Both the position numbers and the translations under genes were made by a program. A DNA stretch of 64,000 nucleotides from positions 1 to 64,000 of the forward strand of contig NW_002476164.1 of assembly GCF_000189635.1 (NCBI RefSeq). The letters run 5' to 3'. The notes under the pieces are model-generated. The model did not search any database, had not been told where the DNA came from, and saw nothing but the letters and a program-made list of their open reading frames with translations. Shown here piece after piece: positions 43,268 through 61,834 of this stretch (position 1 is its first letter; each line of letters starts with the position of its first letter). The stretch is from Tetrahymena thermophila SB210. Lineage: Eukaryota > Ciliophora > Oligohymenophorea > Hymenostomatida > Tetrahymenidae.

Positions 43268-46200
43268 TCAAAAAAATTAGTAATAGTATATTGTTAATAT
43301 ATTTGCAGAATAATAATTCAAACAATATTTAGCAAATATAATGAATGGAAGTTAGCTCAATAAAAATATTATATACCTTATATCTAAATTGAATCCATCA
43401 CTATAATTTATAATTATTAATATAAGGCTCAAGAAAAACTAAATTGAATTTACTATCAGATTAATTAACTATAATCTAAATATTATTTTATTATTAAAAT
43501 TTACCAAATTTTTAGTTTCTTAGCTTTATAGAATCATTTTAAATTTAGCAAATTTATTTAAAAAAAAAGTAATAGCTAATCCTATTAAGCTACAGGCCAT
43601 ATTAAGATACTAAACATATACTTTAGTGGTATTAAATTCTAAATTAGCTAGCATAAATTAAGTTATTGTTTGCAAAATAAATATTTTCCAAAATAATTCA
43701 AATTTTAAAGCACGCATTAATAGCACATAGTATAATAATTGGATTAATTAAATTAATGTAATTAAAACAAAACGTAAAAAATTACCAATAAATTAATCTT
43801 CATCTTTTTTCTCGTTCTCTTAATCACTTAGAGATAGTAGTGATATTTAAACTAATAACCATAAAATAGTAAAAACTAATTAAAAAAAATTAGTTGGACG
43901 GGTAATTCTATAGTTACTTTAATCATAATTTATAATTTCTAAGTTATTTTAGACAAAATATTCATTCATATTGTAAACAAGCAAATCATATGTTTTAACA
44001 GAATTTATAATTAATTATGTTGACGTAGATTATTTTATTGTTAAATCTATTTAATCAATCTCCATTTATGATGACTAAATATTAATTTTTATATCTTCAG
44101 TAAAATGAAAATTTAATTAATTGGAACCATTTAATGATCTTAGTTTTGAATTTCGAATGTCAATAATGAATAAAATTGAGTTTTGATACAAATAATCTAA
44201 TATATCTTGTATATTTTATTAGGAATCAAACTCTATAAAATTAAAATACAAATTAATTATTCCATTTCTTTAAAATTCAAAACATTTTATCAAATTCAAT
44301 AAAGTTTCAAAATCGATAAAGCAATCGTTAAACTTTATATTTAAGTTTACAATCTCAAACCCCTTAAGTTTTTATTCTAAAAATTAAACTAGGTTCTAAT
44401 TTTTAAAAATTTTAATTTTAATAAAATCTAAATCAATTTATTTAACAGCTTTAGCAGGTATTTTTTTATTTAAATAGTTTATAAGACTGCCATATTCATA
44501 ATCTTATATAAGTTATTTTTAATACTCAGAAAATATTTTTAACTTAACAGAGTCTTTTATTTTTTTAACTTTTTTATTCTCAATAATTTAAATGCCTTTA
44601 AAATAATTTTATGAGTATTTTATATTATTTTCAAGTATTTTATCTTAAAAAGAGATCATAAATATATAAAATGATTTTATTTAGTTCTTATTTTGTAGCA
44701 ATTTTAAAAATATTTAATTATTGCTCTGGTCTTAACGATTTTAGATTTCTTAGGTTATTTCAATTTATTAATATTACATATTTTAAATATCATTTAGTAA
44801 GTCTTTAATTACTTATTTAAAGAATTCCAACATTATGTCATCATTAGTTTTTTACGAAGATATTTTCTCAATAGTATAATATTTGTCTAATAAATAACAA
44901 ATTTTAAAAGTGTTAAAATCTTTCTACATTTTCAAATTTTAGGATTGATTTTCAAATTATTCTGCAATTATAAGAGTATTCTCTTTATGGTTTGATTCAT
45001 GTTTTAATATCTCAATTAGATCCTATTATTTTTATGCTTTCTTTTAAATATGTATTGCCAAATAGAGATTTTAGTCACTTATAGTAAGATAACTTGATAA
45101 GTTGTCAATGTTGGATACGAAAACTTAAATAAATAAGTTTTTATTGTTATTTTCACATTTATTACTTAATTTTGGAATTTATTCCTAAAATAGTAAATAT
45201 TAATTTTCATCAAATGATATAATAATCTTTTGTAGTTTATTTGATCTTTTAATTTTTTTTTTCAAAGCCTGAATTATTAAATTAATCTGATAATCATAAA
45301 TAGACTCAATGTTAATTTAAAGAAGATCTATCTGCTCTTTCATTTCAAAACCCATTAAGTTTTTTTATAGCCTTTAGGAATAGTAATAAAAATACACATG
45401 AATAATAGATACATCGAACTATTCAATAATGAATGCTGGAACATCATCTTATAATTAAATTAAAGGAGTTTTATTCTTAATTTTTTATAAAAATAATTAA
45501 ATTAATTATCCTTTATTGTTAAATTTTTAATCAGTTAATCCAAAATACAAGATGTCTTTCTCATATAATTTGAAATATCTGCAAAAATGATTGTATTAAC
45601 TGATATCTCTTTCATTCTATAATTAATTTCTTTAGTTAATAGCTATATCTATTTGAGTTGTTTGATTTACCTAAAATTTAGAATTTGAGTTTCTATAGAG
45701 AATTAGATCTATAATCTATATGCTAAACCTATTTATTGATATTATTTCATATTATTATTTTTATTCGTTATATATTATGTCATATAAATTGCTCATAGCT
45801 TATTTAAAATATCCACCAAAATCTGAAATTAAGAATATTTTTTATTTTGGAGGCTATATAGTTAATCCTTGTTGCATTTAATAGATGTACGATAGACAAT
45901 CAATCAAATAATTACCTAATCTTTTAAATTCTGGTTTTATTCTATTTTTATAATCCTAGCACTTATTCACATCAAAGTTTTGTAATTCAGGATAGTATAT
46001 CATTTCAACATCAATCATCACCAAAAAAGTAATTATTAATTAAGCATAATCACAGTTTATAACTTCTGACTATTTCCATTCTTTTTTATTTCTTTTATCC
46101 AAATAAATTTAAAGATTATATATTCTTGTGTAAGACTATAAGTATTCTTGATAAGATTGTTCTCTATCTAAAAAGACAGAGGCTCCGAAATCAATAAAAT

Positions 46201-47221
46201 AAAAATGTAGATCATAACCTATCACAATATTTTATGGTTTTATGTCAGAGTGGGCTATCTTGCATGTTTTATGCATCTGATTTAACTTCTATAGCAATTA
46301 GCAAAAGCCAAATTCAAGAATAAGATTGTAGCATTCATAATTTTTGTTAATCTAATATTATTTATATACTAAATCTAAGCTTTTTAAACCAGAATCTATG
46401 TATAGAATGCACTTTTCATTTAAATTCTACTCTTTTAAGAATTCATATTTAATAAATGGTAATGTTACCTAAGTATTTTGCTATTAAATATAATTCAAAA
46501 TATCAATTTCAATTTATAATTCATTTTTAAACTCATCAGAACTCATTTACTGGTCTTTTTCATAAGATTTTAAAATTACAAGCTTCTTACCATCATTAGA
46601 AATATTAGTTTTAATAGAAACACAATATGTTCCAACTTTACTGTAATACAATTTTTGTATAGTTTACTATTTTTTTTTTTAATTAATGTAATTATTAATA
46701 TTGAAATCGCTTGATATACTTTGTGTTTATTCATCCTGTATTACTTCATTTTCAAAAGAACTCCCTAGATTTCCTATAATATTATTTAAAATATTATTTC
46801 TCACTATTTTATCACTTATAAGAAGCTTTTCACTGTAAATTAATACATCATTATTAAATTATTAATTGGTTATTATTTGTTAACAAATGAAAAGATTCTT
46901 ACATATAAATTATTAGCTTAATTAATTTTTTTACTCCTCTGTGCTCTCTTCACATTTCTCATCTATCATTTCAGTATAATGTTCAAGTTCTACTTTAGCT
47001 GCTTCGTTTTCTATTACTTTATTCTTTCTTTTTTTTAATTGAGTTTAATCATTACTTCCAAAGTATTATTTAACTGAACGAAAAATAGATGTTTTTTAAG
47101 AACTTTCTTGACTTTAATTATTTCTTTTAATCGGATATGAAGGTTTGAAGCTCTCCTCAGTAACAAATTGATAACTTTTCTCCTTTTATATTAACTCTTA
47201 AGTGATTTAAAGAATATCCAT
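43268..47221 (-). CDS. Protein kinase with C-terminal polytopic membrane domain, 1317 aa
   Basis: A single 1318-codon open frame on the minus strand, ATG 47221-47219, TGA 43270-43268. Residues ~1-180 are polar and low-complexity. The kinase domain follows: a beta-3-like lysine in KKLVILKSY (~residue 215), the catalytic loop AHSDIKPQNIVI (~325, HSD in place of the usual HRD), and YFIDFGAS (~343) supplying the DFG metal ligand. All three key residues (Lys, Asp, Asp) are present, so activity is plausible. Residues ~480-1110 are a Gln/Asn/Ile-rich region I cannot classify. From ~1113 to the end there are six or seven hydrophobic segments, such as FFQLVFTILWLLVQISLLSL, LRFVLITLIQLIQLLYYVLL, SLIGLAITFFLNKF and INLIVNSIQFFLSLILIIIN. 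This suggests a kinase held on the cytosolic face of a membrane. Substrate and family are not identified. Confidence 0.83.
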
Positions 47222-47704: not shown

Positions 47705-49300
47705 TCATTGAATTTAATCACTATTTTGAAGTAAATTTTATTAAATGGTAGTTTTTTCATTAGTAGGTTTTACTTTCAAATTTTATTATTAATTTTTTTA
47801 TATATCCTTATAAATTTCTTAAAGATTGCTAAAGTTGAACCACCTCGTTTCAACAATATATTTCATTGAAAACAAGAAGCCTAAAAAGCCAAAAAATCCA
47901 TAAATAATGTGATTAATATATTGATAAGGATTGACAAGCAATACAAAGGAAAAGAAGTGGCCAAGCCAGTTTGCCATAATGCTGTAACTGAAACCTCTAT
48001 CTTTTAGAATGTCAGAAGTCAATATGACAGTAACAGGACCTATAGTAAAGTTGAATGATGCATAAAAGAATAATAAGAACATGAAAAAGGTAAACTAGAG
48101 AGTTAGATTTTCCTTCAAATTATTAAAACAACTACTAATTATGGCCATAATAAACTAACATATGGAACAAAGTAGGAATCCTCCTACAAGATATTTCTTA
48201 CGAGCTAACTTACGGTCAAAGGCAACACCTAAAGTAGATACAAATAAATTGAAAACATAAGAACCAAGAATCAAGCATCTTTCCATTTCAGGATTGTCTG
48301 TTAGAAGTCCAATGACTGACCCAGAGAGACCTATTACAGCAGTTCCTCCAGACATTTCTTGACAAAAATTAATTAGTATTCCAACCCTCAAGCGATTTTT
48401 ATAAGATTTACCATAATCTTAAATTATATTGATTTCTTCGCTTACTAAAGAATTGAAATTATTTGCTTGTTCTGAGCTTTCGACATCTTAACATGACCCA
48501 ATTTGTAGTTCTGTTTATATTTCATTAATATCAAAAGAACCTGGTACAAGATACTATTATTCTAATTCGAGTATGCATTTATCTTAGTAGATTAATTCTA
48601 AGGCTTCTCTTCCTTGGATTAATTGTTTTTTTCTGTAATAATAATAAGGGGTATCTTTCTTATATATAAAAACTAGAGAAAGCAATCTTATTATAGAAAA
48701 GATAGCAGGAAATAGAAAGATAAAATGCCAGTAGTTACCAATTTCTTAATCGTTATCAGTGAAATTTTCCATTGGAATTTAGTTAAAAAATGCTAATAAT
48801 ATTCCAAGTGAAATATTTGCCTAGAAAAGAGACTCCGTTTTTGAAGAAATGTGATCTGGAGATATCTCACGGATATAAAGAGGGGTTACTATTAGATCTA
48901 TTCCGCATGTAGCTCCCATGAGAAAACGAGCTATTACAAATACATACAAGGAGGGAATCTATGTTAGAATTGTAGCAGTTATGAAAATAATATCAGAAAT
49001 AATCATGCATTAGCGCCTTTCAATTTTTGCAGTAAAGAGAGGAATGAAATAAGAAATAATAAATCCAGAGACACAAAAAATAGGTCCAATCAAAAGACAA
49101 AGCAAACGAGTTTGTTCAGTTAATTATTTTTCATTCTAACTTTCTTCAAATATCTAAATTCCATTCATACTTAGAATGTACATTCCAGTAAAGAGCATTT
49201 CAGTTAAAACATAACCTTAATAAATACCTCCTGCGCATACACTTTAGACTCTTAAAAAGAGAGATAGATTTGATTTTAAAGTGTACTTTTTTCCAGCCAT
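47705..49300 (-). CDS. MFS sugar-transporter-like protein (copy A), 531 aa
   Basis: Single-exon minus-strand frame, ATG 49300-49298, TGA 47707-47705. The protein has ~12 hydrophobic segments with a large central loop (~residues 225-300) and the sugar-porter landmarks of the major facilitator superfamily. These are FTAKIERRQ (89-97) for the loop 2-3 motif, ARFLMG (124-129), PLYIREISP (140-148) matching PxYxxE, DRKLARKK (362-369) for the loop 8-9 motif, and VETRW (483-487) matching PETKG. The family moves sugars or related polyols by facilitated diffusion or proton symport; the substrate here is unknown. It is the most diverged of the five tandem copies (for example SGGTAVIGLSG where C and D have TGCTALTGLSS) and lies at the 3' end of the cluster as transcribed. 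Confidence 0.9.
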
Positions 49301-50950
49301 ATTAATAAAGATTTGTTGATTTAATTGTTGTTTTTGCTTTTTTATAAGTTTTGTTAATTTAATGTATTTATATATTATAAATTAAATAAATGCCTAATTT
49401 ATAAATTAGCGTTATTAGCTCTATTACATTTTTATTACGAAACTAAATAAAATTAATTAGTTTTTGGTGTAAATGTTGTGAAGATAAAGTTTTGGATTAT
49501 TAAAGAGTTAAGTATATTTAAATTAAGAAATTATATCTTACTTGGTAATAAAGCTAATTAATATTTTTATATATCTGATGCATCAATTTAATTCTGTTAA
49601 AAGCTTACCAACTTTGTAACCCAAAGTAAACAAGTAAAAGCCAAAATTATTTATATGTTTATTATTATCAAATATGCCAGAGTTATTTATTAGATATACT
49701 TGAATAACATGTTTCCATGAATTTTTGAGTTTTCTTTTTAAATATTTAAGTGGAATTTACATTACATGTATTTAATTTACTACTTATGTATTTCTTGAAA
49801 AAATTTCCTAATAAATTTGTACTTTGTAAATAAAAAAATTTAATAAAGATAAAAATAAATAATTGAATTTGAAATAGATCAAATACTCAATTTGTATATT
49901 TCATTTTCAAATAGTTTACTAAAAAATTTACTTAATAACTTATTAATAAATATTTTAATATATATACCTTATTTTTAAGTTAAAAGCGACATACTTTTTT
50001 TATCAATAGAATTGTTAGATTTTGTTGTATTTGAATATTGTATAAAATATTAATGCAGGTAATAATTACTAAATTTAGATAAATTGCATTAAATTTTAAT
50101 AATATTTTAGTATTTATATCATTTTTCATAAAAATAGATTCGTCAAGTATTATAAAAATAGATAAATTTAGATTTGATAAATCTATTTTTGCAATATTTG
50201 CTGTGAGTATAAATTTTTTCTAATCAGTATTAATGCAAATTGATTAAAAATCCTAATCAAAATTATTTAAAAAGTACTTTTAATCTAATTATCAAAAACA
50301 AAAGCTCAACTATTTTTCATTTTCCTTTTTAATTAATTGATAGCCATTTCTTCATATATTTAAATATTTATAGTTACATAGAAATAAGAAAAGATGATTT
50401 AAGTTTAAGCAAAAAAATTTAAATCGCAAAATAAAAAGATTCTCACCTTGATATTTTAATTTCACTTAATTTGAATGTTTTCAATTATATTAAACTTTGT
50501 AAGGCATAAAAATAAAAAATGATAATTCAAATTAAAATATGATTAGTTATAAAAAATTTTCTACTAATATTTTTCTGCTAATTTATTTAAAAATATAATA
50601 TTGATTTGATTACAGACAAATATATGAAAAAGCAAATAATATCACACTAAAATATAAATTTTTTATTATTACATAAAAAAATATCAGATTTTTTATAATT
50701 AATTTCAAATAAGGAATTATAATTTTGAATTCAGATCCGTATGGATGCTAACATGAATATAATATAAAAAATCTTAATATTTATTTAGAAATATAAATTG
50801 TGATTTCTTTTTACTTAAACCTACCCACTTACAACATTACTTCAAATTAATAAATTTTATTGATGAAAAATAAAAAATTTAAAAAAATAGAATACTTTAA
50901 TGGATAATAAAAATTACAAGTATAGTTTTATAATTTTTAGTTTATTATAA
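49301..50950. other. Spacer between transporter A and B, with duplicated segment
   Basis: AT-rich and non-coding as far as I can see. The part 50031-50862 is nearly identical to 55922-56747 downstream of transporter D. In both places it lies beyond the 3' end of the transporter gene, which marks one edge of a segmental duplication. Confidence 0.7.
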
Positions 50951-52540
50951 TCAATAATTTATTTCTTGGTTAGAAATCAATTTCTATTTAATTTCTATTT
51001 TTTGACTAGTTTGCTTTTTGTAAAGCTATTCATGCTAATTTTTTTGAATATCTTTGTAAAGTTCTTAAATGTTGCTAAAGGTAAGCCATTTTGTCTCAAT
51101 AATATACTTTGTTGAAAATAAAAATCCTATAAAAGCAAATGAACCATAAATAATATGATTGATATATTAGTAAGGATTAACCAAAAGACAGAAAGAAATC
51201 AAAAGTCCAAGCCAATTTGCCATAATGCTGTAGTGAAAACCTCTATCTTTAAGGATATCTGATGTCAAAATAACAACTACATGACCTACAGAAAAACTGT
51301 AAGAAGCATAGAACAAGAAAACAAATAGCAAAAAGACGAATTATAGAGTGTAATTTTAGCTGAGGGTTGTAGTAAAGCTACTAATTAAAGCAATAGCAAA
51401 TTAAAATATTGAGCAAACTAAAAAGCCACCAACTATATATTTCTTACGAGCTAATCTACGGTTAAATGCAACACCTAAAGTAGCAACTAATAAGAGGAAA
51501 ATATATGATCCTAAAATAATGCATCGTTGAATTTCATAATCACTAGTAATAAGCCCAACAATCACAGGCGATAAACCTATCATTGCAGTACAGCCAGTCA
51601 TTTGTGAGCAAAAATTAACTACAAGTCCTACTTTTAAACGGTTTTTGTAAGACTAATCATAGTCTTCTATTATCTTAATTTCTTCACTCAAAACGGAGTT
51701 ATAATTAGCATTTACTGCTTCAACGTTTTGATTAAGAGTAAGTTGCTGAGTAGTTTTTATTTCTTAAATATCTATTGATCCTGGGGCCAAATATTATTAT
51801 TCTAGCTATAAAATATATTTTGGTTTGAAAATTTATTCTAGAGCTTCTCTTCCTTTATCTAAGTTATTATTTCTATAGTAATAGTAAGGTGTGTCAACCT
51901 TATAAAAAAATTTTAGGACAACAAGACGCCATATAGAGAAAAAAGCAGGAAAAGCAAACACAAAACGCCAATTATTTCCTATTTCCTAATCATTACTAGC
52001 AAAACTTTACATTGGAATTGAAGTTAAAAATCCTACGATAACTCCAACAAAAACATTTGCTTAGAAGAGTGAACCTGTTTTAGATGCCATATTATCAGGA
52101 GATACTTCACGAATGTAAAGAGGAGTAATCATTAGATCTATTCCACATGTTATTCCCATCAAAAGACGAGCAATCATAAATACATACAAAGATTCAATTT
52201 GAGTGAGAGCAGTTGCAAGCAAAAAAATTAGATCTGATATAATCATGCACTAACGCCTTTCGAATTTAGTAGTGAATAGCGGAGTAAAATAAGATATAAG
52301 AAATCCTGAAACACATATGATAGGTCCAATTAAGAGAGTCATATAACGTGCTTTCACTGATTCAGGCTTATCAGGTAAATCATCGTCATAGATATTTATT
52401 CCATTCATACTTAGAATATAAGCACCAGTAAAAAGCATTTCAGACATGGCATAACCTTGATAGATAGCTCCAGCGCAAACACTTTAAACTCTTGTGAGCA
52501 ATGAAAAATTGGATTTATGTTATTATTCTTCTACTTACAT
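50951..52540 (-). CDS. MFS sugar-transporter-like protein (copy B), 529 aa
   Basis: Single exon, ATG 52540-52538, TGA 50953-50951. Same plan as copy A: TTKFERRQCMIISD, ARLLMGITCGIDLMITPLYI, NRRLARKKYIVGG and IETKWLTFSNIQELY near the C-terminus. The N-terminus (MQVEEQQHKSNFSLLTRVQS) is distinct from the MPGKNYHHISDLSLF type of copies C-E. Its flanks match those of gene D although its coding region does not, which is the key to the cluster's history. The substrate is unknown. Gln codons TAA/TAG cut it into several short pieces in the standard code. Confidence 0.9.
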
Positions 52541-53476
52541 TTATGAATTATAATCGAATAATTTATTTTTTTTAAGTTAATTATTTTTGTTTTTAATTAT
52601 TTATTTCTTAAAATATAGTTGAATATATAAAATACTCAAAATATTTGAATGCATGATAGACAAAATCACTAATATATAATTTATCAGAATTAAAAGTAAA
52701 GGATAGTGAAAGCAAACTTTTAATTATCTTCAAAAATAGAAAAAAGCCAAATCTAATTATTGAATTATTAAGTTAAGATTCCAAATAGGAAATAATTAAA
52801 ATTAAAAAAAGAAAACCCCCACCCTATATATCTCAAACAAAATATTACCTCATTTTAAAAACTTAATATTAATAATTCATCATTAATAGTACTGTTGAAT
52901 TTTGTTAATATTTGTAATTAATGTTAATCATTGTTTATTTTGTTTTACACTTTTTATATTCCCTTTTTGTAAGAATAACCAGAAAGAAAAAAAATAGATT
53001 AGAAAAGGTAATTTAAAGTTACAATCTTTTCTTAAGCAGATTCAAAAAGTAAAAAGAAGAAAAAAAATAAACTAAAAAAGTTTACTCTAATAATAAAAAA
53101 ACAAAAATTATTCAGATTTTTATTTTTTATCAGTACAAATATGTTTTTATTTCTTTTATATTTTAATTATATATGCTATAAATATTTAGGATACTAAGTG
53201 CACCTTTATTTTGTTATTTTAAGCTATCAATTAAAATATTAAACACTAAATTCCACTAATTACTTTAACCTAAATATATGCATTTAATTTTTATTTTTTT
53301 AATATTTTTTAACCTAAAAATTAATAAGAGTCTTTTATAAATGAGAATTGGCAAAACTTTATTTATTTATATTTAAATTTTAATTTATCTGTTAATGAAA
53401 AATAGATAAAGGATGCAAAAATATTATATTTCCAATACAAAAGTAGAATATAAATTATATACTTTAACGTATTTAT
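52541..53476. other. Spacer upstream of transporter B / downstream of C
   Basis: The part 52560-53090 (upstream of B) resembles 59300-59850 (upstream of D). The part 53110-53476 (3' flank of C) is nearly identical to 56960-57319 (3' flank of D) and weakly similar to 59860-60250 (3' flank of E). Confidence 0.7.
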
Positions 53477-55072
53477 TCAAACATTTGAAGTTATTAAATG
53501 CTAAAGTTCAAGGTTTTTATGTATGTTAATTTATTCATTATATATTCTCTCATGCTAGTCTTTTTATATGTCTTTGTAAAGCTCTTGGATATTGCTAAAA
53601 TTTAACCATCTTGTTTCAACAATGTAGTTTATTGAAAATATAAATCCAAAGAATGCAAATGAGCCATAAATTATATGATTTATATATTGATAAGGATTGA
53701 TCAACAATATAAATGAAAAGAAAATTCCAAGCCAATTTGCCATAATGCTATAACTTAAGCCTCTATCTTTGAGAATATCTGTGGTTAATATTACTGTAAC
53801 AGGACCAACAGTAAAATTATATGCAGCATAAAAGAAAAATATAAAGAGCAGAAAGACAAATTAAAGTGTAATATTTTCTTTTAGAGTAGACTTGAAACTA
53901 CTAATTATGGCAAGAATAAATTAAAAAATTGAACATAGCAAGAAGCCTCCAACTAAATATTTCTTACGAGCTAGTTTTCTGTTAAATGCCACTCCTAAAA
54001 CAGCAACAAAGAGAAGGAAAAAATAAGTTCCCAAAATTATGCAGCGTTTAGTCTCATAGTTGCTTGAAATTAGACCGATTACAACACTTGAAAGACCTGT
54101 TAATGCTGTACAACCAGTCATTTGTTAGCAAAAATTAACTACTAGCCCTACTCTCAAACGATTTTTATATGAATGCTCATATTATTTTATAATTTCTACC
54201 TTCTATTAGATATCGAAATTAAATGTTTTTTGCTCTGCTTCTGACTAAAGACCTTATTTTTCTGCTATCTTGCGCTTATGAATATCCTAATGATCTGGGA
54301 CATCTATAGAACTCGGTTTTTAATGCTATTATACAAAGTGGTGAACATATTTCTCTTAGTATATTTACTATAGAGCTTGCTTGCCTTAGTCTTAATTTCC
54401 TTTTCTATAATAATGGTAAGGAGTATCTATTTTGTAAAATACAAGTATTGAAATTATTCTTATTATTGACAAAATAGCAGGAAAGACAAAAACAATTCTC
54501 CATTTATTTCCAATAGGTTAGTCATTGCTAGAAAATTCGTCAACAGGAATTTGCAGTAAAAAAGCAAGGATTGCACCAATAAATATATTTGCTTAGAAGA
54601 TGCAGCCTGTTTTACCAGCCATATTATCAGGAGATATTTCACGGATGTATAAAGGAGTTACTACAAGATCAATTGCACACGTTATACCCATTAAAAGGCG
54701 AGATATCATGAATAGTTCCCAAGTTGGTAGTTAAGTGAAAATAGTTGCTATTAAAAAAATAAGATCTGAAATAATCATGCATTAGCGTCTTTCAATTTTT
54801 GTAGTAAAAAGAGGAATGAAATAAGAAACGATGAAACCAGACACACAAATTATAGGCCCAATAAGTAGAGGCATATAATGAGCATTTTCTGTCTCAGGTT
54901 TACTTGGATCAGACATATCGAAAATATCAATACCACTCTTACTTAAAATATATGCACCAGTGAATAACAACTCTGCCATTGTGTAGCCTTGATATATTGC
55001 TCCAGCGCATACACTCTGAACTCTCAAGAAGAGTGATAAATCTGAAATATGATGATAATTTTTGCCAGGCAT
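53477..55072 (-). CDS. MFS sugar-transporter-like protein (copy C), 531 aa
   Basis: Single exon, ATG 55072-55070 (MPGKNYHHISDLSLFLRVQS), TGA 53479-53477. Motifs as in the other copies: TTKIERRQCMIISD, SRLLMGITCAIDLVVTPLYI, NRKLARKKYLVGG and VETRWLNFSNIQELYKD. The central loop is Gln/Glu-rich (KRKIAEKQGLQSEAEQK). Nearly identical to copy D over the N- and C-terminal parts, but with different residues in the central loop, where D follows copy E. Expected in a cell membrane as a 12-TM sugar or polyol carrier. Confidence 0.9.
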
Positions 55073-57319
55073 TGTATTAATATTTTTATTGTCAATTTAC
55101 CTATTTATAATTTATATTTTTAAGCTTAATCCTATCTATTTTTTTATTCTTATAATAATTATCTTATTAAGTAATAGAAAACTTCTACACAGATATAAGG
55201 CTCAATAAATTGAGAATTATTAATTATTTACCAATCAATAGTAATAAAATTAAACAGAATCTATTGTAAAGAGGATTAATTTATTTAATGATTTGCTTAT
55301 GATTAAGTATTATCAAATTTCTTCTATATTTTTGACAAAAATTATTTAGTTGCAAGTTTTATTTAAATTATGCACTAAATTTATTGTATTTGATGATAAA
55401 TTTTATTCAAACAGCAATTTTCATTTTTTTTTAAGATTACAATCTTCTTATGAATTCTTACACATTTAAAGAAAGTTTAATCTTGTATGAAAATAGCGTA
55501 AATGATATTTTTTAATACAGATCTTAAAAAATAAATCAAATTAGCAAACAAAAATCAATTTAAAATAATTAGTTATATATTTTTACAATCTAAAAATCAT
55601 TTATTATTTTAAAATAAATATTGACAAAAATCTTTTTGTTTATTTTTGAACCCATAAGTTTTAACTAAATTTAAAGATTTATATTTTTAATACATGAATT
55701 AGTTAAATGGTTTCTTATTTACATAAACTTTTTTAATAGAAGTATAAATAAATAAAATATAATAATATATATAATAGAATATAATTTGTTCATTTAATCT
55801 TTTAGTTAAAAAAGTTTATTAAATATATATTTTTTATTTAATTTTATCTTTATATACTACTGTTAATATTTATATAAGCACTTTCTTGAAAGTTAAACTT
55901 TAAAAAGACAAAATTTTTTAATTGAATATTGTATAAAATATTAATGCAGGTAATAATTACTAAATTTAGATAAATTGCATTAAATTTTAATAATATTTTA
56001 GTATTTATATCCTTTTTCATTAAAATAGATTCGTCAAGTATTATAAAAATAGATAAATTTAGATTTGATAAATCTATTTTTGCAATATTTGCTTATAAAT
56101 TTTTTCTAATCAGTATTAATGCAAATTGATTAAAAATCCTAATCAAAATTATTTAAAAAGTACTTTTAATCTAATTAACAAAAACAAAAGCTCAACTATT
56201 TTTCATTTTCCTTTTTAATTAATTGATAGCCATTTCTTCATATATTTAAATATTTATTGTTACATAGAAATAAGAAAAGATGATTTAAGTTTAATCAAAA
56301 AAATTTAAATCACAAAATAGAAAGATTCTCACCATGATATTTTAATTTCACTTAATTTGAATGTTTTCTATTATATTAAACTTTGTAAGGCAGAAAAATA
56401 AAAAATGATAATTCAAATTAAAATATGATTGGTTATAATAAATTTTCTACTAATATTTTTCTGCTAATTTATTTAAAAATATAATATTGATTTGATTACA
56501 GACAAATATATGAAAAAGCAAATAATATCACATTAAAATATAAATTTTTTATTATTACATAAAAAAATATCAGATTTTTTATAATTAATTTCAAATAAGG
56601 AATTATAATTTTGAATTCAGATCCATATGGATGCTATCATGAATATAATATAAAAAATATTAATATTTATTTAGAAATATAAATTGTGATTTCTTTTTAC
56701 TTAAAACCTACCCACTTACAACATTACTTCAAATTAATAAATTTTATGAAAAAAATTGCTATTATTATTTGGTGTATTAAATATAAAAAAAATATTAAAA
56801 AACATTAGGTAGATTTTCAAGAAGTAAAAATGTTTTTAAAATAAATTTCCATTAAAATATTAGCTTTAAATCATAAAAATTAAATGAAATATCACTATCT
56901 GTACCTACTCAGTTCGTGATATTTTAATTACAGGAAAAATGTATAAAAATTGTTAAGATTTTTATTTTTTATCAGTACAAATATTTTTTTATTTCTTTTA
57001 TATTTTAATTATATATGCTATAAATATTTAGGATACTAAGCTGCACCTTTATTTTGTTATTTTAAACTATGAATTAAAATATTAAACACTAAATTCCACT
57101 AATTACTTTATCCTAAATATATGCATTTAATTTTTATTTTATATATATTTTTTAACCTAAAAATTAAAAAGAGTCTTTTATAAATGAGAATTGGCAAAAC
57201 TTTATTTATTTATATTTAAATTTTAATTTATCTGTTAATGAAAAATAGATAAAGGAAGCAAAAATATTATATTTTCAATACAAAAGTAGAATATAAATTA
57301 TATACTTTAACGTATTTAT
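55073..57319. other. Spacer between transporter C and D with duplication edge
   Basis: 55110-55800 (upstream of C) resembles 61840-62540 (upstream of E). 55922-56747 repeats 50031-50862. 56748-56955 matches nothing else I noticed in the cluster. 56960-57319 repeats the 3' flank of C. The spacer is thus a patchwork whose joints mark recombination points. Confidence 0.7.
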
Positions 57320-58915
57320 TCAAACATTTGAAGTTATTAAATGCTAAAGTTCAAGGTTTTTATGTATGTTAATTTATTCATTATATATTCTCTCATGCTA
57401 GTCTTTTTAGGTGTCTTTGTAGAGCTCTTGGATATTACTAAAATTTAACCATCTTGTTTCAACAATGTAGTTTATTGAAAATATAAATCCAAAGAATGCA
57501 AATGAGCCATAAATTATATGATTTATATATTGATAAGGATTGATCAACAATATAAATGAAAAGAAAAGTCCAAGCCAATTTGCCATAATGCTATCACTTA
57601 AGCCTCTATCTTTGAGAATATCTGTGGTTAATATTACTGTAACAGGACCAACAGTAAAGTTATATGCAGCATAAAAGAAAAATATAAAGAGCAGAAAGAC
57701 AAATTAAAGTGTAATATTTTCTTTTAGAGTAGTCTTGAAACTACTAATTATGGCAAGAATAAATTAAAAAATTGAACATAGCAAGAAGCCTCCAACTAAA
57801 TATTTCTTACGAGCTAGTTTTCTGTTAAATGCCACTCCTAAAACAGCAACAAAGAGAAGGAAAAAATAAGTTCCCAAAATTATGCAGCGTTTAGTCTCAT
57901 AGTTACTTGAAATTAGACCAATTACAACACTTGAAAGACCTGTTAATGCTGTACAACCAGTCATTTGTTAGCAAAAATTTACTACTATTCCTACCCTCAA
58001 ACGATTTTTATATGAATTTTCATATTATTTTATAGTTTCTACCTTCTATTAGATATCAGTTTTAAATATTTTTTGCTCTGCTTCTGACAAAAGAGTTTAT
58101 TGTTCTGCTATCTTACGCTAATTAATGGCTTAATGGTCCGGGACATCTATACAACTCGACTTTTAATGCTATTCTACAAAGTGGGGAACATATTTCTCTT
58201 AGTATATTTACTATAGGGCTTCCTTGCCTTAAACTTAATCTCCTTTTCTATAGTAATGGTAAGGAGTATCTATTTTGTAAAATACAAGAATTGAAATTAT
58301 TCTTATTATTGACAAAATAGCAGGAAAGACAAAAACAATTCTCCATTTATTTCCAATAGGTTAGTCATTGCTAGTAAACTCGTCAACTGGAATTTACATT
58401 AAAAAAGCAAGGATTCCACCAATAAATATATTTGCTTAGAACAGGCAACCTGTTTTACCAGCCATATTATCAGGAGATATTTCACGGATGTATAAAGGAG
58501 TTACTACAAGGTCTATTGCACATGTTATACCCATTAAAAGGCGAGATATCATGAATAGTTCCCAAGTTGGTAGCTAAGTGAAAATAGTTGCTATTAAGAA
58601 AATAAGATCTGAAATAATCATGCATTAGCGTCTTTCAATTTTTGTAGTAAAAAGAGGAATGAAATAAGAAACGATGAAACCAGAAACGCAAATTATTAGC
58701 CCAATAAGTAGAGGCATATAATGAGCATTTTCTGTCTAAGGTTTACTTGGATCAGACATATCGAAAATATCAATACCACTCTTACTTAAAATATATGCAC
58801 CAGTGAATAACAACTCTATATTTGTGTAGCCTTGATAAATTGCTCCAGCGCATACACTCTGAACTCTCAAGAAGAGTGATAAATCTGAAATATGATGGTA
58901 ATTTTTGTCAGGCAT
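57320..58915 (-). CDS. MFS sugar-transporter-like protein (copy D), 531 aa, mosaic of C and E
   Basis: Single exon, ATG 58915-58913 (MPDKNYHHISDLSLFLRVQS), TGA 57322-57320. All transporter motifs are present, so it looks intact: TTKIERRQC, SRLLMGITCAIDLVVTPLYI, NRKLARKKYLVGG, VETRW. DNA comparison shows C-like sequence from the 3' flank to about 57960. It is E-like from about 57970 to 58450 (for example GGTCCGGGACATCTATACAA) and C-like again to about 58952. The protein consequence is a C-type transporter with an E-type central loop. Its outer flanks are like those of copy B. Confidence 0.9.
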
Positions 58916-60250
58916 TTTATTAATATTTTTATTGTCAATTTACCTATTTATACAGCTGTTCCTGGTTTTAAAATTCCGCTGATTGGATATATTTAATTAG
59001 CGGAGTTTGTAAAAATATTAATATATAAATGACAAAATGGCAGTTTATGTATTTTTTTTTTTCTTTTTTAAATCAGAATTTATCAGATATACCTTTAATT
59101 AAAAATCAAGGAGAGCATTTTAATTTTTGGTTCCAAAAATTAAATTTTTGCTGTAAATTCCTAAAATTTAATTAAAATATTCGAATTGAAAAAATAGAAA
59201 GAAAAATAAGGTTTAAGTTAATATTTCATTCAAATATATATGAACTGTAAAACCTTCTATTTTACCTAAGAATGTTTTCGAAAAAGCTTTAAAAAAATTT
59301 ATTTATTAAAATTTATAATAATCGAATTATTTATTTTTTATTTAATTGTTTATTTTTTAAATATAGTAGTATATATTAAATACTCTAAATATTATACAGC
59401 ATAATTGGCAAAGTCTTATTACATAATTTATCAGAATTAAAAGTAAAGTATAATAAAAAACAAACTTTTAATTAATTATCTTTGCAAAAATAGAAAAAAA
59501 GCCAAATTTTAATTTTAAATTATTAACTTAAGATTCTAAATAGAAAAGCATTCGAATTAAAAAGGAAATCCCCACCCTACATACCTCAAACAGTATATTA
59601 CCTCATTTTCGAAATTTATTTTTAATATTTCATCATTAATAATACTTTTGAATTTCGTTAATATTTGTAATTAACGATAGTGAATCTTTATATTGTTTCA
59701 CTTTATATATTCCATTTTGTAAAAATAACTAGAAAGAAAAGTAAAAGATAATTGATATTTACAATATCTGCTTAAACAGACTCTAATAAAATAAGAAGAA
59801 ACAAATTAATCTATAAAATTTGACTCCTAATAATCTAAATAAATCAACAAAAATTGCTCAAATTTTTTATTTTTTTTTCATGACAAATATTTTTTAAGTA
59901 TTTCTATTACATTTTAATTATTTTATTCTACAAATATTTAGAACATTGTGCCTTTTTTATATTATTTTTATTTTATTATAAACATCTGTATTTCATTTTT
60001 ATTTTTAATATGATTTTTTTGTGTTTTATTTTTTTGTACTTTCGAATGAATTATGTTCAATCAAAAAGTGTATTCAACAAATTTTAAATTAAAGAGTCTT
60101 TGATGATCGAAAATTCACAAAAATTTATTAATATTTAAATTCTAATTGATATTTTTATGATAAATAGATAAAGTAAGTAAAAATATTATTTTTTCAAAAA
60201 AAATAAATTATGAATTATACATGATACATATTATGCATTTATATGTTTAT
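58916..60250. other. Spacer upstream of transporter D, with a homology breakpoint
   Basis: The first 37 bases (to about 58952) match the upstream region of C. Then comes a less AT-rich segment with a hairpin (58976-59003), then DNA resembling the upstream region of B (59300-59850), then the diverged 3' flank of E. No coding region recognised. Confidence 0.65.
58976..59003. repeat. Imperfect hairpin at the transporter D upstream breakpoint
   Basis: CCGCTGATT (58976-58984) and AATTAGCGG (58995-59003) pair over 8 of 9 positions with a loop of 10 bases. It lies about 25 bp beyond the point where similarity to the upstream region of gene C ends. Confidence 0.6.
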
Positions 60251-61834
60251 TCAAACATTTAAATTCTAAAGTTCAAGGTTTTTATTTAGGTTAATTTATT
60301 CATTATATATTCTCTCATGCTAGTCATTTTCGGTGTCTTTGTAAAGCTCTTGGATATTGCTAAAATTTAACCATCTTGTTTCAGCAATGTAGTTTATTGA
60401 AAATAGAAATCCTAAGAATGCAAATGAGCCATAAATTATATGATTTATATATTGATAAGGATTGATCAACAATATTAATGAAAAGAAAATTCCAAGCCAA
60501 AATGCCATCATGCTATAACTTAAGCCTCTATCTTTGAGAATATCTGTGGTTAATATTACTGTAACAGGACCAACAGTAAAGCTATATGCAGCATAAAAGA
60601 AAAATATAAAGAGGAGAAATATAAATTAAAGTGTAATATTTTCTTTTAGAGTACTCTTGCTACTAATTATGGCAAGAATAAATTAAAAAACTGAACATAG
60701 TAAGAAGCCTCCAACTAAATATTTCTTACGAGCTAACTTTCTGTTAAATGTCACTCCTATAACAGCTACAAAGAGAAGGAAAAAATAAGTTCCCAAAATT
60801 ATGCAGCGTTAAAGCTCATAGTTGCTTGAAATTTGACCAATCACAATGTTTGAAAGACCTATAAATGCTATACAACCAGTCATTTGTTAGCAAAAATTTA
60901 CTACTATTCCTACCCTCAAACGATTTTTATATGAATTCTCATATTATTTTATAGTTTCTACCTTCTATTAGATATCAGTTTTAAATATTTTTTGCTCTGC
61001 TTCTGACTAAAGAGTTTATTGTTCTACTATCTTACGCTAATTAATGGCTTAATGGTCCGGGACATCTATACAACTCGACTTTTAATGCTATTCTACAAAG
61101 TGGGGAACATATTTCTCTTAGTATATTTACTATAGGGCTTCCTTGCCTTAAACTTAATCTCCTTTTCTATAGTAATGGTAAGGAGTATCTATTTTGTAAA
61201 ATACAAGAATTGAAATTATTCTTATTAGTGACAAAATAGCAGGAAAGACAAAAACAATTCTCCATTTATTTCCAATAGGTTAGTCATTGCTAGTAAACTC
61301 GTCAACTGGAATTTACATTAAAAAAGCAAGGATTCCACCAATAAATATATTTGCTTAGAACAGGCAACCTGTTTTACCAGCCATATTATCAGGTGATATT
61401 TCACGGATATATAAAGGAGTTACTATAAGATCAATTGCACATGATGTACCCATTAAAAGACGAGATATCATGAATAGTTCCCAAGTTGGTAGTTAAGTGA
61501 AAATAGTTGCAAGTAAGTAAATGAGATCTGAAATAATCATGCATTAGCGTCTTTCAATTTTTGTAGTAAAAAAAGGAATGAAATAAGAAACAATGAAACC
61601 GGATACACAAATTATGGGGCCGATAAGTAGAGGCATATAACGAGCTGCTTTTGTCAAAGGTTTACTTGGATCAGACATATCAAAAATTTCAATACCATTC
61701 TTACTTAAAATATAATTAACATTGAATAGTAACTCTGAAATCGAATAGCCTATATAAATACCTCCAACACAAACACTTTGAACTCTCAAGAAGAGAGATA
61801 AATCTGAAATATGATGATAATTGCTGCCAGGCAT
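60251..61834 (-). CDS. MFS sugar-transporter-like protein (copy E), 527 aa
   Basis: Single exon, ATG 61834-61832 (MPGSNYHHISDLSLFLRVQS), TGA 60253-60251. It keeps TTKIERRQCMIISD, the PLYI region, the loop 8-9 motif and AETRWLNFSNIQELYKD, so it appears intact. It is four residues shorter than C and D, through a small in-frame deletion after ENITLQ-type residues (near 60655) and a shorter C-terminal tail. The central loop is nearly the same as in D. It is the first gene of the cluster in the direction of transcription. Substrate unknown. Confidence 0.9.

Follow-up and report, generated by a model that had tools for sequence, protein, structure and literature searches.

The window, the whole 64,000-nt stretch of Tetrahymena thermophila DNA analysed here, is AT-rich ciliate DNA in which TAA and TAG are translated as glutamine. 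On its minus strand at 43268-47221, coordinates that the first-pass annotation had given correctly, lies a gene for 1317 amino acids followed by TGA. We call its product P1 (P0001) and four paralogs from the same genome P2-P4 (P0002-P0004, contig C78) and P5 (P0005, contig C82). The P1 frame is open only if TAA and TAG are read as Q (table 6); under table 11 every frame in the interval is shorter than 80 aa. A chance frame was ruled out by run length: the TGA-free run enclosing P1 has 1434 codons, and the longest runs in 30 simulated 64-kb second-order Markov sequences had 354-717. The main observation of the first-pass annotation, a kinase and a hydrophobic module joined in a single open frame, is confirmed for P1. 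The features of the locus are as follows.

43268..47221, minus strand: whole P1 gene, 1317 aa + TGA in the ciliate code (from simulation and paralogs)
46712..47221, minus strand: N-terminal region, residues 1-170, poorly conserved
45902..46711, minus strand: kinase region, residues 171-440, with a Pfam match at 206-362 (PF00069, E 4.5e-8)
46568..46570, minus strand: K218, the ATP lysine as assigned by alignment, invariant in 5 of 5 members
46244..46252, minus strand: HSD 324-326, catalytic loop in which Ser replaces the Arg of HRD, invariant in 5 of 5
46184..46192, minus strand: DFG 344-346, invariant in 5 of 5
43886..45901, minus strand: middle region, residues 441-1112, unclassified, with mixed strand and helix preference (propensity only)
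43829..43885, minus strand: hydrophobic segment 1, residues 1113-1131 (hydropathy; a helix in a low-confidence model)
43715..43771, minus strand: hydrophobic segment 2, residues 1151-1169 (hydropathy; low-confidence model)
43640..43696, minus strand: hydrophobic segment 3, residues 1176-1194, the weakest (hydropathy and model; missing from a first scan)
43559..43615, minus strand: hydrophobic segment 4, residues 1203-1221 (hydropathy; low-confidence model)
43409..43465, minus strand: hydrophobic segment 5, residues 1253-1271 (hydropathy; low-confidence model)
43319..43375, minus strand: hydrophobic segment 6, residues 1283-1301 (hydropathy; low-confidence model)
47705..61834, minus strand: five tandem MFS sugar transporter genes (PF00083), 59-94% identical, directly upstream of P1

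The N-terminal region is 19-29% identical to those of the four paralogs and has no Pfam match in P1. The kinase domain that follows, described beforehand from its Lys, HSD and DFG, is real: its PF00069 score of 33.2 bits is just over the curated cut-off of 31.7, and P0002, P0003 and P0004 score 40, 33.8 and 48.2, with no match for P0005 at E up to 1. In the five-member alignment the invariant positions are K218, HSD and DFG together with E238, K328 and N331. In a ten-row kinase alignment the catalytic loop reads HSD in nine rows and HGD in one, and neither a glycine-rich loop nor an APE motif is recognisable by eye. The poor visibility of these two motifs, together with a weak Pfam score that vanishes in P5, would suit a membrane-bound pseudokinase scaffold, in which the kinase fold is kept only for binding; we consider this very unlikely, given that the Lys, Glu, catalytic Asp, Asn and DFG Asp are all invariant and that, of the protein's four parts, the kinase shows the lowest dN/dS in each of six pairs computed (0.16-0.43, with synonymous sites near saturation in distant pairs). 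Because the catalytic residues are invariant in all five members, catalysis is plausible, and P1 is apparently an active protein kinase. With HSD for HRD it is a non-RD kinase, so that it is probably not switched by phosphorylation of the activation loop.

The stretch between kinase and module had been described as some 600 unclassified residues; unclassified it is, but its length is about 670. In this region the identity of P1 to its paralogs is 38, 36, 34 and 27%. Profile searches, a check that the first-pass annotation had proposed for this part and for the membrane part, gave no PDB match for the middle region at E up to 10, and a best Pfam E of 0.029 among the five middle regions, in one of the five members. 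Some stretches look by eye like degenerate leucine-rich repeats (LRRs), but an assignment to them was dropped for want of profile backing: no LRR family is among the matches at E up to 10 for any of the five, so that profiles do not place P1 with the LRR kinases. The region compared with itself has no internal repeat. Residues 477-510 of P1 resemble, by eye, two of four other HSD kinases of the same genome (C11 and C13, the others being C67 and C17). The kinase regions of these four align with the P1 family at profile probabilities of 98.8-99.4%; in profile comparison of the middle region the probabilities are below 1% for C67, C17 and C13, and 2.1% for C11.

The C-terminal module had been credited with six or seven hydrophobic segments. 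Six stand, spanning residues 1113-1301, and the seventh does not; a first scan gave five, lacking the one at 1176. A rough position-weighted insertion scale called only three segments in P1 (starts 1112, 1206 and 1256), and AlphaFold without relatives folded the module alone into six long helices at pLDDT 55.6, in agreement as to number only. Counting hydropathy peaks of 1.2 or more in the last 215 residues, we find six in P1, six in P2, four in P3 (with weaker peaks of 0.87 and 1.13 at its two other segment places) and five in P5; 215-residue stretches taken at 20-residue steps elsewhere in these four proteins have at most two. Stretches of 215 residues with six or more peaks number 1 of 309 when the DNA has the module's composition, 1 of 157 for window-like DNA, and 9 of 191 when all frames of the window are pooled, the five transporter genes included. 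Searches with the module gave no PDB sequence up to E 10 and, for the four members queried, nothing in Pfam below E 0.09; used as a genome query, the module finds only itself.

We searched the genome (101,022,631 bases in 445 contigs) in six frames with the whole P1 protein, scoring the best candidates, which gave at least ten matches. Contig C78 carries, on its minus strand and inside 18 kb, three long copies plus a fragment, and C82 has one long copy; P1 itself and four distant kinase matches were also returned, and the middle region alone recovered the same four long copies. The kinase regions of P0001-P0005 form one clade against five other kinases with support 99/97, four of the five outside kinases being on long branches. 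The tandem C78 copies P2 and P3 keep the order of kinase then module. In P0004 (L012 369-4073 plus downstream 1-368) the kinase is constrained and the module broken, its later segments lying in another frame with a TGA. A degenerate fifth kinase fragment closes the C78 cluster (L011 3084-3775), and two membrane-protein genes, similar by eye (L012 5086-7002 and L013 5186-7447), alternate with the kinase copies, which suggests that a two-gene block was duplicated. A single scan of viral contigs (one of 8) and a single scan of genome contigs (one of 2), with two short peptide patterns each, found no relative. Long C4A2 repeats are present in the same assembly, with 4397 forward and 3944 reverse matches to four repeats, the listed places being bases 5-358 and 465612-465893 of contig C4; taken with the size of the genome, they point to a Tetrahymena macronucleus. 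The first-pass annotation had suggested that such proteins may define a ciliate family of membrane sensors or transport-coupled kinases; part of that holds, in that kinase and module share one frame and their order recurs in tandem paralogs, and its reach is limited because ciliate relatives could be searched in this one genome only.

The module sequences have diverged strongly. Module identity is 21-22% between P1 and P2 or P3, 50% between P2 and P3, and 14-24% to P5, and its dN/dS of 0.69-0.86 (four pairs with open modules) is near neutral. Nonetheless P1 and P2 each have six peaks whose starts, anchored at the C-terminus, differ by at most five residues. We compared the summed hydropathy at the source's segment places with that left by simulated neutral drift. 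Drift reached or passed the observed sum in 7 of 400 runs for P1 to P2, 4 of 400 for P2 to P1, 3 of 400 for P1 to P3, and 1 or 3 of 400 for P2 to P3 (at 0.55 or 0.70 identity). With the windows left free it did so in 8, 57, 13, 20, 3 and 18 of 400 for six comparisons within P1-P3; by peak count alone P3 is not unusual (drift 179-275 of 400). For P5 the figures are 327 and 366 of 400 at the source's places and 231 of 400 with windows free. These tests support a hydrophobic pattern common to P1, P2 and P3 beyond neutral drift, and do not extend it to P5, whose tail is hydrophobic with its places unmatched and gives no support for a shared pattern.

In the ciliate code only TGA stops translation, which gives an opening to a different account of the same frame: segments 1-3 might be an unspliced AT-rich intron, or the whole module 3' noncoding read-through, leaving a protein that is soluble or has fewer helices. 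Between P2 and P3 (L011 and L013) segments 1-3 are the least alike part, with 57% DNA identity against 80% for segments 4-6, a fast change that could reflect diversification, weak constraint or a part-intronic origin, three causes that a module dN/dS near 0.86 does not separate; being near neutral, that ratio leaves an intron or partial read-through conceivable. In P1, moreover, a GTAACT lies at codon 1102 and TAG acceptors occur near 1191-1194, the broken module of P4 sits behind a conserved kinase, and the P5 tail draws no support from the drift test. Against this, the hydropathy of P1-P3 at common places exceeds drift (1-7 of 400), P2 has no GT-then-A/G donor at codons 1070-1104, ahead of its first segment, and a 227-codon open frame has a chance of about 0.02 in presumed intergenic DNA or DNA of module composition. 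The in-frame codon scores of the segment 1-3 half, 6.4 in P1 and 5.7 in P2, also exceed those of all 186 noncoding chunks (maximum 3.5), which are presumed intergenic, overlap one another and also trained the noncoding model. Of the eight module halves, six do not outscore the top noncoding chunk, and in six of the eight the correct frame ranks above both others on its strand. Within the P1-P5 family, coding and noncoding DNA can barely be told apart by synonymous codon usage. On this evidence we regard the intron or read-through account as possible but unlikely.

Six helices with both ends in the cytosol is a common count among transporters and channels, and, given the five sugar transporters just upstream of P1, the module might itself move a solute or ion, with the kinase coupled to it. 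We think this distinctly unlikely: neither Pfam nor PDB yields a match for the module, its conservation is low, and the loop between segments 5 and 6, at about 10 residues in P1-P3 by inspection, is short for a pore loop; nor does P1 match a voltage-gated-like six-TM channel, which would have a pore loop there, or such a Pfam family. An origin of the module in the adjacent sugar transporters was also considered and rejected, the likeness being at chance level (best E 0.42).

The reading we lean towards, and hold to be somewhat probable, is that of a cytosolic kinase held at the membrane by a C-terminal six-helix module. The sequence itself directly gives a single frame, a kinase domain bearing its catalytic residues, an order of parts that is repeated in the tandem paralogs, and a hydrophobic pattern kept among P1-P3; activity, topology and anchoring go further. 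The kinase and the middle region of about 670 residues would lie on the cytosolic side, the latter perhaps binding partners, and the chain would then cross the membrane six times; with an even number of helices and a cytosolic kinase, the C-terminus would be cytosolic too. The module would anchor the kinase and may relay a membrane signal to it. Net loop charges, for loops presumed cytosolic and outer, are +5 and -4 in P1, +5 and -7 in P2, and +5 and -3 in P3, in keeping with this arrangement; those of P5 (0 and +3) do not fit the proposed topology, and in P1 the presumed cytosolic loops are no richer in K+R per residue (9/71 versus 5/37).

Several known systems combine a kinase with membrane spans. 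Receptor kinases carry their spans N-terminal to the kinase; a hydropathy scan does not show this arrangement in P1, all peaks ahead of residue 332 falling below 1.1. The oomycete receptor-like TKL kinases have one to nine predicted membrane spans and are described, in the available excerpts, with a signal peptide, spans and a cytoplasmic kinase, though these excerpts give no order of parts for the multi-span members (PMC3019232); P1 likewise has predicted spans and a kinase, and its segments all come after the kinase. The choanoflagellate GPCR-TKL/K proteins and the 7TM-kinase fusions of oomycetes and amoebozoans, as the excerpts of PMC12716839 present them, place seven helices first and the kinase at the C-terminus; they too are polytopic, whereas P1 has the order reversed and six segments, and so does not qualify as a GPCR kinase. 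In Tetrahymena itself, species-specific kinase and LRR genes are expanded and often in tandem, and a figure legend reports one domain network with kinase, LRR and transmembrane nodes; the order of parts in P1 is not described among those genes in the excerpted text (PMC6564038). A kinase followed by six segments was not found in the literature searched. Nor do the four HSD kinases of the same genome, or the HGD kinase C116, have a C-terminal hydrophobic bundle, unlike P1, in the frames read, an absence that is provisional since C11 and C17 have their ends beyond those frames and C67 may continue by splicing. What the P1 family offers is a novel arrangement of parts in a kinase; it does not amount to a new type of system.

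A bolder version, which we rate as rather unlikely, is that the fast-changing C-terminal module detects a signal from the membrane or the lumen and acts through the middle region to switch the N-terminal, cytosolic non-RD kinase. Segments 1-3 would be diversifying from one tandem copy to the next, the kinase remaining fixed, and the family would then be a small ciliate group of receptor kinases in reversed order. If a clade does place a six-helix module after the kinase, it would represent a separate route to a membrane-linked kinase, and one testable in a tractable ciliate. Should the module be only an anchor, it would still be a lineage-specific gain on a kinase family whose other members, as read, have no such module.
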